From Paralichthys olivaceus (taxonomy: Eukaryota; Chordata; Actinopteri; Pleuronectiformes; Paralichthyidae), in NCBI RefSeq assembly GCF_024713975.1, contig NC_091107.1, positions 14,621,501 to 14,685,500 of the forward strand: a stretch of DNA of 64,000 nt, written 5' to 3'. Positions within the stretch are counted from its first letter, which is position 1. Each line of letters opens with the position of its first letter. Made by a program: the position numbers and the translations under genes. Below are positions 2,288 to 32,387 of the stretch, piece by piece. The notes beneath the pieces were generated by a model. It was not told the origin of the DNA. It saw nothing but the letters and a program-made list of their open reading frames with translations, and made no database searches.

Positions 2288-5200
2288 GTTGAACATCTGA
2301 GAAAATATTAGCATCATGTCGCAATGTAAGTTACACTCAAATTCAATATTTCATCCTTTAATGAGATGAAACTGTTGTGTGAGCATCATTAGTGTCCACA
2401 GATATCCTGACGTGTGTGGGTGTGTTGTAGATGTTGACAGAAACCAGGTGTTAAACACCACCAAGGTGCGAACATCGCTGAAGAACGATGGCTGCTGGAT
2501 CCAAAGATCTGAAAAGAAAAAAGAAGAGCAAGACGAAGCCCAGTAACCTTTAAAACAGATATTAAAGCCTTTGTGTTTTTTCTGATGTGCTGTGGTGCAG
2601 TAAGGCATCGCTTCTACTGCATCTTCAGGAAACACAGAGTCCCTCTTAGTAGTTTTACTCCATGAACGCATATTTTTTTAATTAATTATTTCTGCTTCCT
2701 CTGTCTTGCAGGACGGACCTCGGTGAGGAGACCGGACCCACTGAGGTCAAGCAGAAGTCATACGTCCTCTCTACAGCCAAGAAATTTGAGTGAGTGCTAA
2801 ATTATGAATATTCAGCTGTGAAGATTATCAGTGTTCTTGACTTATTTAAAATGTACAAAAATGTTAATGAACAAATGGGTTTCAGGAAGAATAAGGGAAG
2901 AACTTATCGAGCTCTTTCAGATACCACAGGTGTAATAGCAGTGGAAAGACATAATTGGTGATGTTTGATTATAGTCTCATCATAATATATATATAAATGT
3001 ATAAATGTAATTAAATAATATTCAGCAAATATAGAAAAATGTGATTTCATGAACAATTTAGATGATTTGGGCTAATATATTTATATAGTAATATTTAAAT
3101 GTCAGACACCAGTGTGACAAATGTTTTGATAAGAGAAACACTGTAGTGGCAGTTCTGCAAGTCAAACTCAAATTGTCCTTAGACCCACTTCTGTCAGTGG
3201 ATGATAACTAAAAAAATGTTCAAGCTTCAGGCACAAATCACCATCTGTGACATTAACATACTGCACATTAATATTAACTGAACTCTGGAGCAGCTCCGCC
3301 GCATCTACAAAGACCGACAGAGTTCTGTAGGCTGACCTGTGCTGCAGCAGGTTGATGAAGCATTGTTGGTTTTATAATACAAACCTCAGGCACACAGTAA
3401 CACCTTGTTGCTTTTAAAAGTTTCCTTCTAGCTAATATCCACTATAAAAAAACAGATTCCCAGTTTGAGCCGTGCAAATATTTTAACAGCCTTAAATCTT
3501 CAATAGTCACGACGAAGATGTGATAAATACTAATTATTGTTTTACTGATTTAAAAAAATAATAACTACAAATGAACTAAGATGTATTCAGTATCATTTAA
3601 ATAGATTATATAGATGTTCTGAAACATTCATAGACTGTACAGTAATAATAATTAATAATACATGTGGTAAAGTTCCCTGTGGAATGACCTGGTTTCCTGC
3701 ATCAAATAGAATCTTTATGTAACATAGTCACAGGTTTACCTATAGATAGACACACTAAGGAATGTCACTCAGTGGAGCGTATACCTCCGCCAAACAGTCC
3801 CTTTAAATTCAATCAAGTTTTCAAAATTTCACACTCACAGATATCAGTGCCCTTACATATGCCTGATTTTAATCACCAGGACCCATGAATTATTCCCAGA
3901 CAAATCTGTGAATATGTGGAATAAAGCCCTATCTTGCAATGTTAAAGAACTCCTGGATCCGACCCCTAATCTGGATCTGCCCCCAAACTTAATGGGTTCT
4001 TCTTTGGCTCATACCCCACCCCTGGGGAAATCTGTTCTGCAGGTGTTGCGTAACACTGCAAAAGACAAACAGCAATGAAAACACACTTTGTCTGCGGAGG
4101 TAGCGACACACTGATCTCTACTGATCATCCTGCTTCGGAGTCATTTTAGCTGGATGCACAATTCTAGGGAGAGTAGCTACAGAACTAAAGTATCTCTATG
4201 TCTAACTGTTGACCAATGAATATCCAAACTCTTTGACATGATTCCATAACCCCCTAAATCAACAAATCTTTTGAGATCTCCTTCCTGCAAATTAACATTC
4301 AAACCAACAAAATGTTCAAATGCTGAGCTTAAATGAGTCATGAGCTCTTACACACACCTCTGATCTGTTTCATTAATCAGATTAATAACTGCTGACTCCT
4401 GGTAACTGTTGTTAATGTCATAAGCCGAGGGGTTCACATTCTTTCCTTCCTGAATGTTTGATGAAGAACAATCCTTTTTGTGTGTCATTAATTAAAACAG
4501 ATTTGTAGTGATGACCAGACATTTATAGATATATGCAGGTGATCCCAAAGGGTTTACTGACTTTTTTCTGCTCACTGTGTTGTTTATAGTTGAACCTATT
4601 GCATTGATATTACATCACCTTCCTTTAACACGTACCTGACACACAAATGCACAACTACAACCCACACTACTGTGAAATATTGAGGGTATGGACACATTTG
4701 TGCTGCAAAATGAAAGAAAAGTCATTTACTCTGGATTTTCTTCTTGAGGTTACACCGTAGACTCCCTTTAACTAAGAGCAAACAAACATTATATATTTGA
4801 ACATACCTTTGTATTCGGACACCCCTCACCAAATTAATTAACTGTTTAGAGTTTCCTCAATAATGTTTAGGTATTTTAGACAGTATACTCAGTTTATAAC
4901 TGTTGTCCAGCAAAAGAATAAAAGATTCACAAGTGAAGTGAGTTAACAGTTTCAAAGACGTGTTATCATTTCTCTTCACAGTGTCAGTGTAAAAAGAAAA
5001 GAAAAACATGTTAACCCCTCTGTCAGTGTGTTAAGTAACAAGTTTTAGAAATGGATCTTATATTTTGCAAAATAAATCTTGCCAGATGTCACTGTGCCTG
5101 GTTTGTTTCATCAAGATCCGTGAATTATTCTCTGGGAAAACAGTAGAATGTCCTTCCTACAATGTTAAATAACTATTTTTGATAATTAATAATTCCTGGA

Positions 5201-8200
5201 TCTACACCAAAATTTAATTGGTTCTTCTCCAAGTTTTGTGGAAATCCTTTTAGTTCTGTGTGTAATCCTGCTTAAAAACCACACCAACCAATTAACAAAC
5301 AGACGGGGGTGAATACATAACCTCCTTGGCCGAGGTAATTAGTGAATACCCACAAAGAGGAAACAGAATTTAATACAGCAGAAACTTGTAGCCTGTAGTT
5401 TTCTTTATTTTTGATTTGAAAATGTTTTGTCTCCTTTAGTTTTATGTTGAGACTCACAAGCTGTGAACCACCGTTGAGCAGCATTCAAACACTATCACTC
5501 AATCACCAAACCTGAACACTACTTTGAAAATATCAACACACTCCATTCTTCTCTGCGAGCTGACAAACAGAGTTCTCTGCAGGAAGCCTCTTTCCTCAGA
5601 GGTACTAATTGGCATATTGACAGTCTTGAGCAGTAATGAGCTACAACGAAGGTCCGGCCGCTGTGAGCTCTCCGACAGTGTGTGCCTGCTGCGCTGATGT
5701 GGCAAAGGAAGGGTCAGCTGCTTGGCCCATGCTGTGTGGTGGCATTAAATGACCCTCAGTGACAACAAAGTGGTTCAGCGGGTAGATACCACATTTGCTA
5801 AAGCCTTCCTTGACAATCCTGGAACCCTCCTCTTCCTTCGCTAGCTGATACGTCCCTTTAAATACGCCTGAGAACTCCTTCTTGCTTATTGCAAAGTGAG
5901 TGTCAGTGGCACAGCCTTCCCCTAGGAGTGCTGCAAAACGCTGCCTCAGTAGCACAAAGAGTCCTGCGTTGAGCGGCTGCAGGATGTGAGAGCAATGAGA
6001 CGGAAGGCACAGCAGGACGACGTCCTCCTTGCGAGCGGCCTCCACAACCTCAAGGTTCACCGGTGACTTGTGGCCGTCAAAAATCAGCAGCAGTGGACGC
6101 TCCTTTGGTGCGTGCAGAAGAAAATGTTTGAGGAACCATTTCTTAAAGAGGTCCGAGGTGACACACCCTGAGCCTGACCACCCGTAGAGGGCGTTTGGGG
6201 GCCCTTGTGTCTTGTAACACACTCCCCCTGGATAGGCCTTTGAGTAGATAATAAATGGGGGAATGTCCTCTCCAGCAGCGCTAAAGCAAGCCAGGACAGA
6301 GATGTGGTCCCTCAGACCCATCACTGGCCTGCAGCCTAAACTGGCAGGTTTGGGGACGAGCACCCTCTTCCTGCCCAATTGAAAGCCCGTCTCGCTGCAG
6401 TTGAAGATTTGGTGAGGCTTGTCTTGGAGCCCATGAGCGTCTATGACGGTGCTCAGCAAATGAAAAAACTGATCCACGGCTTCCTTCCTCACACACACTG
6501 TCCTCCCACGGACAACATTGTCCGCTGGCTGAATGGCGATATTCTTTTCCTGCCGTTTTCTAAAATTGAGCCACCAGGTCTGGCCCAGTTTGGAAAACGC
6601 CACCCTCCGATGCTGCCGCTTGTAAATGGACGAGGCGAAGGACACCAGCTGCTGCTTGGTGAGTGGGAATCCATGCTTGGACATGTACAAGGAGAACTCC
6701 ACTAGCAGCTCCTCGTCAGCAGATGTTATGAGCTGAGCTGGTCCGCTGCGGCTCCCCGGTGTCACCCGTCCACTGACTCTGTCCCCCAGTGACGATTTGG
6801 GGACTCCAAACTCCTTGGCAGCCTGTCTCACTGTGCACCTCCCTGACTTCACCTCGATCAGTGCACGCTCCATGGCCTCCTCCGTCCATTTCTTCTTCTT
6901 CCTTCCAATTTTATCAAGATGGTTTCTTGATGGCATTTCTTCTAGAAGGGAACAGGAAATACAGGCATGAATTAAATCAACATGATACTAACAAATGATC
7001 CAAAACATATATTCCTAAGATAAAAAAAACAGACATAAACAATAACAAACTTTGCACATGATAAACTGATTCTCACAGTTTTGACCTCATCCGGCCCCTG
7101 TCAGGATCTCCTGCATCCAGTATCATTTGGCTGGAGTTGGCATCTGATTTAGTGGCTCAAAGGGAGTTTAAATAAAACTTAAATATTTCTATTTACCTCC
7201 ATCAAGGTTTGTCTGTCCGACAGTTAGCTGTATTAAACAAAAACTACAGGACGCAGTATTACCACACAGCTGGGTGAAGGGATCTTTTCTTTATCTTTGC
7301 ATTTTGTCACATTATCGTTGATGTCTCAAAAAATAGCTGATGGATTTTGAATTTACAAACAATCAGGCATGTTTTGGGACAGGTATTTATGAGGGTTTGC
7401 AATTTGGTGCAGATCCAAATGAAAATCCAGATCTAGTAAATTGAATATAGTTTCATATGTAGACTGTTTAAAGCGATGTTGATCATGTTCGGAAACTCAA
7501 GAAGCTAATCTGACTCACTGAGCGTGAAGGAGGCTGCTGGGGATTTCGCTATGAGAGCACACAGCTCGTGTGTTTGCTCCAGACCAGGCTGAGCGGGACT
7601 TACTTGTTCTTGGGGAATCGTCCTGTTAACTTTTCATGGGGAAAAGAAAACCACTGGTCCGGTGTTGGTTGTTGTCACACCGAGCTGCTGCTGCTCACAA
7701 ACATTACTGAGGTTTCTAAATGAACTCACGTGTACAGACATGAACTACACTGAGGTGTGTGTTCCACAGCCGCTGTCACGCGTCTTTAACAGACTGAAAA
7801 CACGCGGCTCCACTTCGCTCTCACCATGTTTTGCTGCCGAGCTGGAAGACAGGATATAGCGGAACACTGCCGGAAGAGTAGAGACGCTGTCTTCAGAATA
7901 AAAGTACCGTTCTTCCTGTTACCAAAATAAGTGTCAAACTCATATTAATAATTATATTTAAATACATTTAAATAATATTATTCTTTCCTTCCTTCCCTTT
8001 GTCATTTCTTTCTTTCCTCCTTCCTGCCATTCTTCCTCCCTCCCTCTGCCCCTTCCCTCCTTCCTTTTAGTGCAGTCTCCATTATAAAGTTTTTAGATGA
8101 GCGGATGTCAAGACATAAAAAAAGAGAACCGTGTGTTCCAATTTATTCATGAGCGCTATGGGCAGTGAAATTGTTGTATTATTTATTCTTTTCCTTCAGA

Positions 8201-11183
8201 TTCACATTTTCATCCTAGTATGACCTCATCCGTGTGTCCTTGGCGATACCTACATCAACAGCGGATCTGTGGAAGTTCACTCAAATATATAAATTGACCA
8301 GTGTACAGCTGCTCCATCTCGAACTTGTAGTCAATACTAAATAATAAATAAATCTTGTTCATAACCTAAAGGCAGTGCGGATCAACACGTGCACACATTC
8401 TGTACATGGACCCACATTAGGCAGAGTTGTAAAACTGAGGAACATTGTAATTATTACATAATTGTAATTATTACAATCATTGCTTCCCAATAAGTTCAGT
8501 TCATGTGGACATATACAATAAGTTATAAGTTATCTTTTGTTGTATATACTGTATTATTGTCTATACTATATTTTTTACATATTGTTATTTATTTTATTTC
8601 TATTTATTTGAATTATCTTGATAGCACAAACATCCAGTAGCAGGTGTTGTTGTTTACTAGTAGTACTGCAGCAGATGAGAAGCACAAAGTGGGACTCTGA
8701 GTCGACTCATGCGTAACTGGAACACATTCCTTGTTCAAAGAAATTGCTCCATCCCCTCACGTCAGCGCAAAGTGTTTGGTGTTACATCACTTTATATTGT
8801 GCTTCAGTACCAAGTCTGACATCATTTGTGTTGCCATTTAAGATGTTTTAGTTTTGTATCATCAATCAAAGTGGCTGGTGTTTTTCCTTTCAACTGCTTG
8901 CATGTGGGAATATAGAGTTTGAACTAATCCCCTAATTCCAGTCATCCTATTTAAAAAGCTCTCACTTATAAAGAAGATAAAACACAATCATATAATCTGA
9001 AACTGTTAAGTTACTTGTACCAGTAAGATTGTAAATTTACTCTATTCTGTGTACAAACCTTGTAAGATGTATAATTTAAGTTGAAACTTCACCTAATGTG
9101 CAATCTTAAGTGTAAGAAATACTAAGTTGATTAAAACAGTGGTGTTGATGTTTGCTTGTGGCATTCATTAGCAAGATGTAATTTACCACTGTTTTGAATT
9201 TGTTATAAGGTAAAAATACCAAGGTTCTTTTCAAGGAGTGTTTCCTATTTTTACCCTGCAGATCAGTGAATGCTCCTGTGAGTCCTCCTCCCAAACAGAC
9301 AACTGAAGGGTATGTACTGTAGGTGCTGAATTTTAATTAAAACTTAACTGTGCAAAATATAACTACACACTTCTCTTCTCTGCACCCACTTGCATTATTA
9401 ATCTCTGTTAAGCCTGAACTTTTTAACCGAATATCAAATACTAATGCAAGATTTATTTGTGTTATGAGTATATTGTTTTTTCTTCTCCTTTGCCTTAGTG
9501 AATCAGCTACTCTGACAAACGGTGAAGTCATTCTTCCCCAAGATGATGATCAGCCTGGGGGCTCAACAGTGGAGACCATAAATGATACAAAGTGGGTATA
9601 TGAAGCAAGTATGAAATTTAAAGATGCTGTGTAGGTTTTTTTGCATGTCTTTTAATGAGCTTCGTCCCTGTTACAGGCCCCAAGCACCCACAGAAGAACT
9701 CATCCAAAATGGTGAAGCAAAACCAGAAAACCCTGTTGCCGATGCAGCTGAAGAAAACAAGGAAGGACTTGCTGATGCACCAGTTGACCAATCAAATGTG
9801 GAAGACAAAGACAGCGCAGCTGAAATCTCTGCAGATATTCATGTCCAAAATGAAGGACCGACATTCTGTTCAGCAAAGGAAAATCCAGAGGCAGCAGCTC
9901 CTGCAGAGCCGGCTGAGCAACCAGTGGTAACAGCCGAAAGTGAAGGGGAACATGCTGATACAACAGCTGAGCAATCAAACCCAGGAGATCCAACCCAGCC
10001 CAAGGTCTCTGCAGATGCACGCGTGGAAGATCCTGTTGCAGAAACCTCAGATGTGGCTGGAACAGGAGAGAAGGAAGACCAACCTCACAGTGTGGAACCA
10101 ATCCCAGATTTACTGTTCGAATCTTTAGCCAAATCATTAAGTCTTCATCCTGTATCAGACTCGCTGAAGCAGTCTGCTGCCAACACCACAGTCGAGTCTG
10201 AAGAGTCTAACGTCAAAGCTGCAGCTCCAGCAGAAGCAGGTGTAAAGAGCAGTGCTGTAGAGATGCCCGAGAGTGAGGTCCAGACTGTTGATGACACTGC
10301 ACCTGAGAACACAGCAGATCCTGTGCACGTGGAGTTGGACATCACTGACGCTGTTGAACCTGTAGCTGCCCCGGAAGGTGGAGCAGTTCAGAGTGTGTTA
10401 TCTGACGGAGGCATTGAACTGACTGATGCATTGGATGTGGAGCCGCCCACAACTGAAGCTGCTCCTGAACCTGAACCTGAACCTGAACCTGTGGATGATC
10501 CAGAGCAAACTCACTCAGAGGAGGCAACACAGAACCAGTCTGATGATACCAATACGTGAGTGAACATCACAGTCATACAATTTTCATATGTTTATACTTG
10601 AAATGCATCTCATTGATTGCTGATTGCTTTTTTTTTTTATAGCACTGAAACGTTTCAAAAGCCCAGAGAGGAGCAGCAATCTAAGAACACTCTTAAAGTG
10701 ACCAGGTAATGTCTCACTTTAAAAACCATGCCCTTATGGAATTTCAAAATGAGCCCTTGAAGTCAATTTTATGGTAGATTTGAAGGGAGGTTAATTTTCT
10801 CACTTTCTCTCTACTTCAGTGATGGCAAAGCTATTTGTTCATTCTGTGACCAAATTATTGATGGAAGGATCAAGATCTCATTCAGCGAACCTCTGCTGAC
10901 CTGCCATGCTGAGTGTCTAAAGGTGTGGTGAAACATATATACATGTGTGTGTTTGTGTTGTAACATGCTCTTGTCATTGTATGATGTTGCTCCTGACCAT
11001 CTTTTGCAGTGTGTGTGTGTATTTACTGACATGCTCTTCTCATTACATCATGTTGACGTTGACCATCTCTTGTTGCAGTGTGGTGTGTGTGCTAAGGGCC
11101 TGGGAGAGTTGCTGATCCCCATGTTTCTGCGTGACCAGTTGATCCAGTGTGATGGCTGCTTCCTCTCGAGGCGTGAAGCCTGA
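2288..11183 (+). CDS. znf185: ZNF185-like actin-associated LIM-domain protein (9 coding exons, 496 aa)
   Basis: Exons: 2288-2325 (ATG at 2316), 2431-2542, 2712-2789, 9262-9309, 9499-9591, 9677-10555, 10643-10705, 10820-10922 and 11079-11183 (stop TGA 11181-11183). Coding length is 1491 nt in continuous phase. The N-terminus carries VRTSLKNDGCWIQ and KSYVLSTAKKFE, closely resembling the ZNF185 N-terminal motifs VRTTLKGDKSWI and SYVLSAAKK. The 879-nt central exon encodes a long, acidic, Ala/Glu/Pro-rich, probably disordered segment with an EPEPEPEPEP run. The C-terminus (about residues 434-491) is one complete LIM domain: CSFC, then HAEC, CGVC and a final CDGC zinc-ligand set. ZNF185 family proteins bind F-actin and act in cytoskeleton and epithelial differentiation; sciellin is the closest alternative but its repeat array is absent. 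The sixth to ninth exons sit within 1.5 kb, whereas the third intron is 6.5 kb and contains an antisense transposase-derived gene. Confidence 0.82.
3782..4104 (-). repeat. MITE-like repeat with TACCTCCGCC inverted ends (family A)
   Basis: The segment begins TACCTCCGCC and ends GCGGAGGTA, inverted copies of each other. Internal text (the 'Cctggatccgacccc' and 'cttaatgggttcttc' segments) is the reverse complement of motifs found in plus-oriented copies at 26365, 50845 and 56655. No transposase is encoded. It is a non-autonomous dispersed repeat; I cannot name the superfamily. Confidence 0.6.
5060..5340 (-). repeat. Family A dispersed repeat, degenerate copy
   Basis: The segment carries the reverse-oriented motifs 'atccgtgaattattctctggga', 'cctggatctacacc' and a terminal 'ccttggccgaggta', matching the family at 3782. 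It lies just downstream of the transposase-derived gene. Confidence 0.5.
5404..5409 (-). terminator. Candidate poly(A) signal of the transposase-derived gene
   Basis: TTTATT on the plus strand reads AATAAA on the minus strand about 230 nt downstream of the stop at 5641. Confidence 0.4.
5641..6936 (-). CDS. Pogo/Tigger (DDE_1, CENP-B-like) transposase-derived protein, 431 aa, catalytic triad lost
   Basis: A single intact 432-codon frame runs from ATG at 6936 to TAG at 5641-5643. Residues about 12-58 form a pipsqueak-type helix-turn-helix (KKKKWTEEAMERAL, AAKEFGVPKSSLGDRV). Residues about 70-140 resemble the CENP-B-type second DNA-binding domain. Residues about 175-390 are a DDE_1 endonuclease fold. 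The usual N-x-DETG block reads NCSETG (Ser181 for Asp). LLIFDGHK keeps Asp287. LPSHCSHILQPLNAG has Asn323 where Asp is normal. Two of three metal-binding acids are gone while the frame is undamaged, which points to a host protein keeping DNA binding rather than an active transposase. An acceptor (cccttctag) sits five bases before the ATG and pairs with a GTAAGT donor at 7603, so the gene is spliced. It lies antisense inside an intron of the ZNF185-like gene. Confidence 0.85.
   Translation of the reverse strand: MPSRNHLDKIGRKKKKWTEEAMERALIEVKSGRCTVRQAAKEFGVPKSSLGDRVSGRVTPGSRSGPAQLITSADEELLVEFSLYMSKHGFPLTKQQLVSFASSIYKRQHRRVAFSKLGQTWWLNFRKRQEKNIAIQPADNVVRGRTVCVRKEAVDQFFHLLSTVIDAHGLQDKPHQIFNCSETGFQLGRKRVLVPKPASLGCRPVMGLRDHISVLACFSAAGEDIPPFIIYSKAYPGGVCYKTQGPPNALYGWSGSGCVTSDLFKKWFLKHFLLHAPKERPLLLIFDGHKSPVNLEVVEAARKEDVVLLCLPSHCSHILQPLNAGLFVLLRQRFAALLGEGCATDTHFAISKKEFSGVFKGTYQLAKEEEGSRIVKEGFSKCGIYPLNHFVVTEGHLMPPHSMGQAADPSFATSAQQAHTVGELTAAGPSL
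7195..7450 (+). repeat. Family A dispersed repeat, degenerate copy
   Basis: It starts with 'acctccatcaagg', followed by 'acaaaaactacaggacgcagtat' and 'gcaatttggtgcagatcc', matching the plus-oriented family. It falls inside the short leader intron of the transposase-derived gene. Confidence 0.5.
7604..7870 (-). other. 5' untranslated exon and promoter edge of the transposase-derived gene
   Basis: On the minus strand a strong donor (CAA|GTAAGT, GT at 7603-7602) ends this segment. The matching acceptor is at 6943-6942, giving a 662-nt intron before the coding exon. The segment is GC-richer than its surroundings. An ETS-type CCGGAAG lies at 7870-7876, and no TATA box is evident, as in TATA-less promoters of broadly expressed genes. 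The exact transcription start is inferred. Confidence 0.45.
7974..8066 (+). repeat. Pyrimidine-rich (TTCC)n-like tract
   Basis: Imperfect runs of ttcc, tttc and ccct without coding potential lie within the ZNF185-like large intron. Confidence 0.7.
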
Positions 11184-21643: not shown

Positions 21644-32196
<10,553 letters not shown>

Positions 32197-32387
32197 GGTC
32201 TGGGCAATACAGTGCCCTTTGCACAATACAAACGCACACTGTGGTGTCTGGTCAGTCCCGCTGCACTGACCCCGTCAAACAGACATCACAAACTGTGCCT
32301 TTGACTCTGATGCTTATCAAATCCAAACACACATCAGCCAGGTATGGACCACCTCCACTTCCACTTTTCATTTCAGTGCACACAGAT
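32197..32387 (-). other. nlgn3: 5' UTR part of the first coding exon of nlgn3
   Basis: A minus-strand acceptor (gtctctttcag) at 32389-32388 opens the exon that contains the nlgn3 ATG at 32196. The leader is therefore split, with at least one further exon upstream. Confidence 0.55.

Follow-up and report, generated by a model that had tools for sequence, protein, structure and literature searches.

The conversion of pogo transposases into host genes is a known kind of event, represented by POGK, POGZ, the TIGD genes and CENPB, and, as far as reviews of pogo domestication describe them, the known vertebrate cases are mostly tetrapod (PMC7386202, PMC7325037). One of these accounts gives TIGD-like sequences as restricted to tetrapods and coelacanth, reports the Tigger- or pogoR-derived group of TIGD2-7, JRK, JRKL and CENPB from the same animals, and describes the catalytic triads of the TIGD genes as varied (PMC7325037). 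Altered triads also appear in Table 1 of the other review, where DD34S (TIGD2), DD30N (TIGD6) and DN35D (POGK) are accompanied by Ka/Ks values below 1 (PMC7386202). The Passer-derived proteins POGK and POGZ have been tested for Passer transposition, in a section headed as showing no Passer transposase activity (PMC9976928), and transposon-derived HTH-Psq factors are described from several invertebrates (PMC10027918). Among the transposons themselves, the classification of Gao et al. (2020, PMC7386202) characterizes Tigger by a DD29-36D triad with either CENP-B_N/HTH_Tnp_Tc5 or HTH_Tnp_Tc5 alone and, in the part considered here, gives HTH_psq only for Fot and Fot-like elements, of which the latter can carry HTH_psq together with HTH_Tnp_Tc5.

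The window analysed here (the whole stretch of 64 kb from the genome of Paralichthys olivaceus) contains, on its minus strand, an uninterrupted frame of 431 codons plus stop at 5641-6936, with its ATG at 6936, its stop codon at 5641-5643 and no internal stops, while the plus strand across the same interval is riddled with stops. A previous sequence-only reading had described an intact 431-residue frame without stop or frameshift, leaving its strand unstated, and we annotate this frame as the single coding exon of a pogo-transposase-derived protein on the basis of the open frame, its Pfam domains and a protein match in its own genome. An HTH_psq domain at residues 18-58 (6763-6885, minus strand, as are all features of this gene given below) matched at E 1.1e-8 and 35.1 bits, above the Pfam cut-off, spanning 41 of the 45 profile positions, and is predicted to form three helices (pLDDT about 83-88). 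It is followed by a second helix-turn-helix, HTH_Tnp_Tc5-like, at residues 75-133 (6538-6714; E 0.0016), which reached 18.8 bits where 22.2 are required and is modelled as helices of low confidence, and by a DDE_1 match at residues 213-334 (5935-6300; E 4.2e-16, above the Pfam cut-off), recovered independently in a genome-wide DDE_1 scan. Since both the DDE_1 and the HTH_psq matches exceed their cut-offs, the frame is not a product of chance, and the association of DDE_1 with N-terminal helix-turn-helix motifs is that of the pogo superfamily. The helix-turn-helix half, which had been described as complete, is thus nearly so in its psq part, whereas the second motif falls short of recognition.

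The second and third triad positions (codons 287 and 323) are separated by 35 residues, the spacing found in Fot, Fot-like and Passer DD35D transposons, and the combination of HTH_psq with a Tc5-like motif is one that Fot-like transposases can also carry (PMC7386202). CENP-B_N was absent from the protein in Pfam searches up to E 10. The presence of HTH_psq without CENP-B_N argues against membership of Tigger, which we rejected although the 35-residue spacing alone would be compatible with it; of the earlier label "Tigger/pogo-like", the pogo ancestry stands, on DDE_1, HTH_psq and the DD35D spacing, and the Tigger assignment does not. Judged from its sequence, the protein fits the DD35D pogo groups (Passer or Fot-like) rather than Tigger specifically. 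Compared with domesticated relatives, it resembles POGK and POGZ in lacking a TIR and in its DDE_1 domain of DD35D spacing, which is preceded by one or two DNA-binding motifs at the N-terminus, but it has neither KRAB nor zinc fingers and its N-terminus is of psq rather than BrkDBD type. It likewise resembles TIGD2-7, JRK, JRKL and CENPB in being an intact pogo transposase frame of host-gene type with an altered triad, as theirs often are, but those proteins carry CENP-B_N and differ in N-terminal domain and spacing. A psq domain is also common to this protein and to LCOR-type proteins, LCoR being its sole sequence match among solved structures (E 0.077).

The complete assembly of Paralichthys olivaceus (588 Mb in 25 contigs) was searched for relatives, all locus counts being lower bounds. 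With the 431-codon protein as query, one match was obtained at E up to 0.001, namely itself (two candidates scored), which argues that the family is neither live nor recently burst, since several related copies would be expected of a live pogo element. At least three DDE_1 loci were recovered from five candidates (the 5641-6936 frame and two others, L003 and L004), and at least four HTH_psq loci from 15 candidates, comprising the same frame and three loci resembling LCOR, none of which coincides with a DDE_1 locus; 5641-6936 is therefore the only locus combining psq and DDE_1 that was found in the 588-Mb genome. L003 (G000:C18:8480420-8483935, positions 844-2409) is an intact pogo-type frame, roughly 500 residues long, that encodes HTH_Tnp_Tc5, DDE_1 and a sub-threshold CENP-B_N; its triad, N170-D275-D307, has Asn in place of the first catalytic Asp. 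Three inverted pairs of at least 18 bases were listed for it, the sole pair bracketing the frame being of 22 bases at 82%, and L003 is possibly another domesticated gene. L004 (G000:C10:23989306-23992653, positions 760-2098) is a Passer-type relic composed of fragments of BrkDBD and DDE_1, in which the triad Asp residues are kept and the reading is split by stops and a change of frame just past the third Asp. L004 thus exhibits a pattern of decay in this genome, triad kept and frame broken, that is the reverse of the one at 5641-6936. An opposite-strand frame with a weak zf-BED match overlaps the 3' end of this relic.

Beyond the fish genome, a protein-derived pattern scan of viral contigs returned 14 stretches and one scan of prokaryote contigs 37, none of them related to the 431-codon protein, and a second prokaryote scan returned zero. 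From the IMG/VR motif scan came a single contig, L001, which bears two pogo-like ORFs, one of them psq-like with 24-25% identity to our protein and the other partial, and an alignment-based scan of viral contigs (34 stretches) yielded one relative, which was L001 again. On this contig (1749-3947 and 4626-8498), presumably fungal-like, the pogo-like ORFs are joined to phage-like genes, the latter recognized by eye, and an ambiguous base lies between its two parts, so that it may be a chimeric assembly.

The triad was read from an alignment of five rows, namely the 431-codon protein, two rows from the single contig L001, L003 and L004, the identities of these relatives to the protein being 24, 27, 23 and 16%, respectively. 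Codon 181 (AGC, 6394-6396) encodes Ser, in the motif NCSETG, at the position that would normally hold the first catalytic Asp; this column holds Asp in two of the three relative rows that reach it and Asn in the third, L003. Codon 287 (6076-6078, IFDGHK) retains the second catalytic Asp, as do all four relatives, and codon 323 (AAC, 5968-5970, LQPLN) encodes Asn where all four have the third Asp. The neighbouring DGHxSH motif reads DGHKSP in this protein, codon 292 (6061-6063) encoding Pro where the second His is conserved in all four relative rows, a change beyond the two proposed earlier. Across these columns the protein has thus lost two residues of the triad and one of the adjoining motif while the frame has remained whole, and the replacement of two DDE acids by Ser181 and Asn323, proposed earlier from the sequence, is borne out at both positions. 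The protein has hence S181-D287-N323, or SD35N for DDD, and has lost two triad residues, compared with one in POGK, likewise altered (DN35D; Table 1 of PMC7386202), and none in POGZ. Given the established chemistry of DDE enzymes, catalysis by such a triad is very unlikely.

An AlphaFold2 model built from the five rows had a mean pLDDT of 50.6 and placed the psq helices with good local scores (83-88), whereas the succession of secondary-structure elements of an RNase H-like fold was recognizable at low confidence. Residues 317-431 fell below 50, so that the modelled position of Asn323 is unreliable. The best Foldseek match was Mos1 mariner (E 7.7e-7, TM 0.28, rmsd 25.5), and the transposase domain of SETMAR was also recovered at low TM-scores; these matches are weak because the overall model is poor. 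The persistence of Asp287 and, in the model, of the general RNase H-like fold order is what could be claimed for a transposase that still works through an altered active site, as part of a live but rare element. We regard this as exceedingly improbable, since two triad Asp have become Ser and Asn and the motif His has become Pro, since the protein matches only itself and no element ends were found, and since POGK and POGZ are reported, under the heading cited above, as without Passer transposase activity (PMC9976928).

Fot, Fot-like and Passer transposons possess DDD triads, terminal inverted repeats and TA-type duplications, none of which was seen at 5641-6936. A search for TA-flanked inverted repeats to the left (4600-5640) and right (6940-8600) of the frame found none that was credible: among 9,102 TA-bounded pairs of 20 bases, the closest agreed at 14 of 20 positions and was AT-rich. 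A general inverted-repeat scan produced no pair convincingly bracketing the frame among the 25 of 33 pairs listed. A search of the genome with the upstream flank as DNA gave 39 non-self matches among the 40 scored of at least 569 candidates, all within 7222-7469, a dispersed repeat copy lying inside the putative intron described below, and the promoter side of the flank (7475-8010) is single-copy in the genome. A live or recently multiplied transposon was consequently rejected, in view of the single protein match, the small number of DDE_1 loci found (at least three), the lack of detectable TIRs and TA duplications, and this unique flank. A short piece at about 5094-5151 resembles the 7222-7469 repeat, which therefore occurs on both sides of the frame. 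The 7222-7469 copy has drifted by about 0.13 from its family, a value biased low because only the seven best-matching copies were compared, and one that dates the repeat alone, bounding the age of the ORF only if the promoter exon and the ORF already formed one unit. No Rfam match was found across the 64-kb window.

Neutral substitution of the frame was simulated at six divergences, assuming a kappa of 2 and indel ratios of 0.05 and 0.10. Runs at 0.12 substitutions per site stayed stop-free in 0.6% of cases, and with indels the survival of the frame fell to between 8e-6 and 1e-8. The joint chance of losing at least two of the three Asp while keeping the frame open peaked, over the six divergences, at 0.46% considering stops only and at 0.10% with an indel ratio of 0.05, in agreement with the earlier argument that a frame rarely outlives the loss of two catalytic residues by decay. 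At low divergence the frame is often spared, 40% of simulated copies being stop-free at 0.02 substitutions per site, and an ordinary non-functional transposon copy, too recent to have acquired stops and having lost its triad by chance or before insertion, would take advantage of this; it could be a young lone insertion, for example a copy that was defective before it arrived by horizontal transfer and whose ends were overlooked. Such a copy is nevertheless an unlikely source of the locus, because recent insertion would be expected to leave kin, and the protein has one genome match among at least three DDE_1 loci, because TIRs and TA duplications were not seen around 5641-6936, and because even at its peak the required combination of events arises in about 0.5% (stops only) or 0.1% (indels) of cases. 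Near-identical copies, inverted repeats and TA duplications, the pattern by which the sequence-only reading proposed to recognize an ordinary transposon, were looked for, the copies by protein and by upstream-flank DNA, and not found. Taken together, the simulation, the drift of the repeat and the contrast with L004 favour, indirectly, selection on a non-catalytic protein, which would be of the purifying kind.

The frame lies within a plus-strand gene which, from its resemblance to ZNF185, we take to be znf185-like. An upstream exon of this gene, recognized by its likeness to ZNF185 and with ends set by eye, is at 2432-2544, further exons lie at about 9490-11182, and two exons within 10820-11182 give a LIM domain once their peptides are joined (PF00412, E 3e-6). 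The occurrence of plus-strand exons of the LIM gene on both sides implies that the frame is antisense to it and most likely inside one of its introns, and the znf185 setting suggested earlier is accordingly upheld. Farther along the window, minus-strand exons of a gene that its motifs lead us to assume to be neuroligin-like are found at 21644-32274.

Several gene-like signals accompany the frame. A putative 5'-UTR intron of 662 bp (6942-7603), which had been proposed before, is delimited by a CAA|GTAAGT donor at 7603 and a TTTCCTGTTCCCTTCTAG acceptor ending at 6942, both present in the sequence. Upstream of it, a presumed core promoter and non-coding first exon occupy 7604-7880 (upstream end guessed), with a CTTCCGG motif at 7876 and a CpG observed/expected ratio of 0.89-1.07 in 150-bp windows starting at 7701-7851, compared with a mean of 0.39 over the 64 kb. 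This rise is modest, with a GC content of 0.32-0.53, and falls short of a formal CpG island; some of the windows at 8101-8400 show raised values too. An AATAAA poly(A) signal is located downstream of the stop codon (5404-5409). A longer protein starting in the first exon was considered and rejected, since reading upstream in the same frame runs into stops, the last of which is followed by no ATG. Third-position GC content is 0.62 in the frame, 0.57 in the L004 relic, 0.35 in znf185 and 0.74-0.78 in the neuroligin exons, and therefore fails to separate the frame from a relic. Going by these signals, transcription of the gene probably starts at a first exon of its own, runs antisense to znf185 and is followed by a single splicing step in the 5' UTR. 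The same signals weigh against a gene that was once domesticated and is now decaying in the Paralichthys olivaceus lineage, its frame still whole and its constraint gone. The weakness of the second helix-turn-helix, the lost motif residues and the DDE_1 score of 59 bits, against 137 for L003, which denotes strong sequence divergence, agree with such decay, whereas 431 codons without stop or frameshift and the presence of splice and poly(A) signals do not, and we consider it improbable.

The best explanation of the locus, and in our judgement a probable one, is that a pogo transposase has been domesticated as a non-catalytic DNA-binding protein, for which the single-copy intact frame (copy number by protein match) with neither TIRs nor TA duplications is the expected form. 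The domestication first proposed from the sequence is in this way retained as the best-supported reading, its Tigger label apart. According to this explanation, a transposase gene of the pogo superfamily (DD35D) would have been captured by a fish genome, would have lost its terminal repeats and metal-binding triad, and would have been kept as a single-copy host gene whose product may be a non-catalytic nuclear protein. By the precedent of TIGD2, TIGD6, POGK and POGZ, this protein would probably bind DNA through the psq helix-turn-helix, with the second helix-turn-helix, and the remaining RNase H-like domain may provide a scaffold on which the protein dimerises or contacts other proteins, as proposed for POGK, POGZ, CENPB and TIGD proteins.

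More tentatively, and as a conjecture that we hold to be possible rather than probable, the gene could have arisen in ray-finned fishes separately from the pogo-derived genes of tetrapods, through conversion of a psq-type DD35D transposase into a chromatin protein resembling CENP-B or POGZ, one that may still recognize relics of its parent family as genomic binding sites. No psq-type pogo-derived fish gene and no transposase in a znf185 intron were found among titles of the open-licence literature, which leaves absence in print unproven, and the gene is apparently a new member, of psq type and from a ray-finned fish. Apart from the psq type and the fish host, the finding is of a familiar kind. 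If the conjecture is true, this genome would, counting L003, contain no fewer than two pogo genes domesticated independently in ray-finned fishes. With a psq-type case from a ray-finned fish, pogo domestication would gain a further independent origin, based on a different DNA-binding domain, and the generality of losing the triad while keeping the DNA-binding half could be put to the test.
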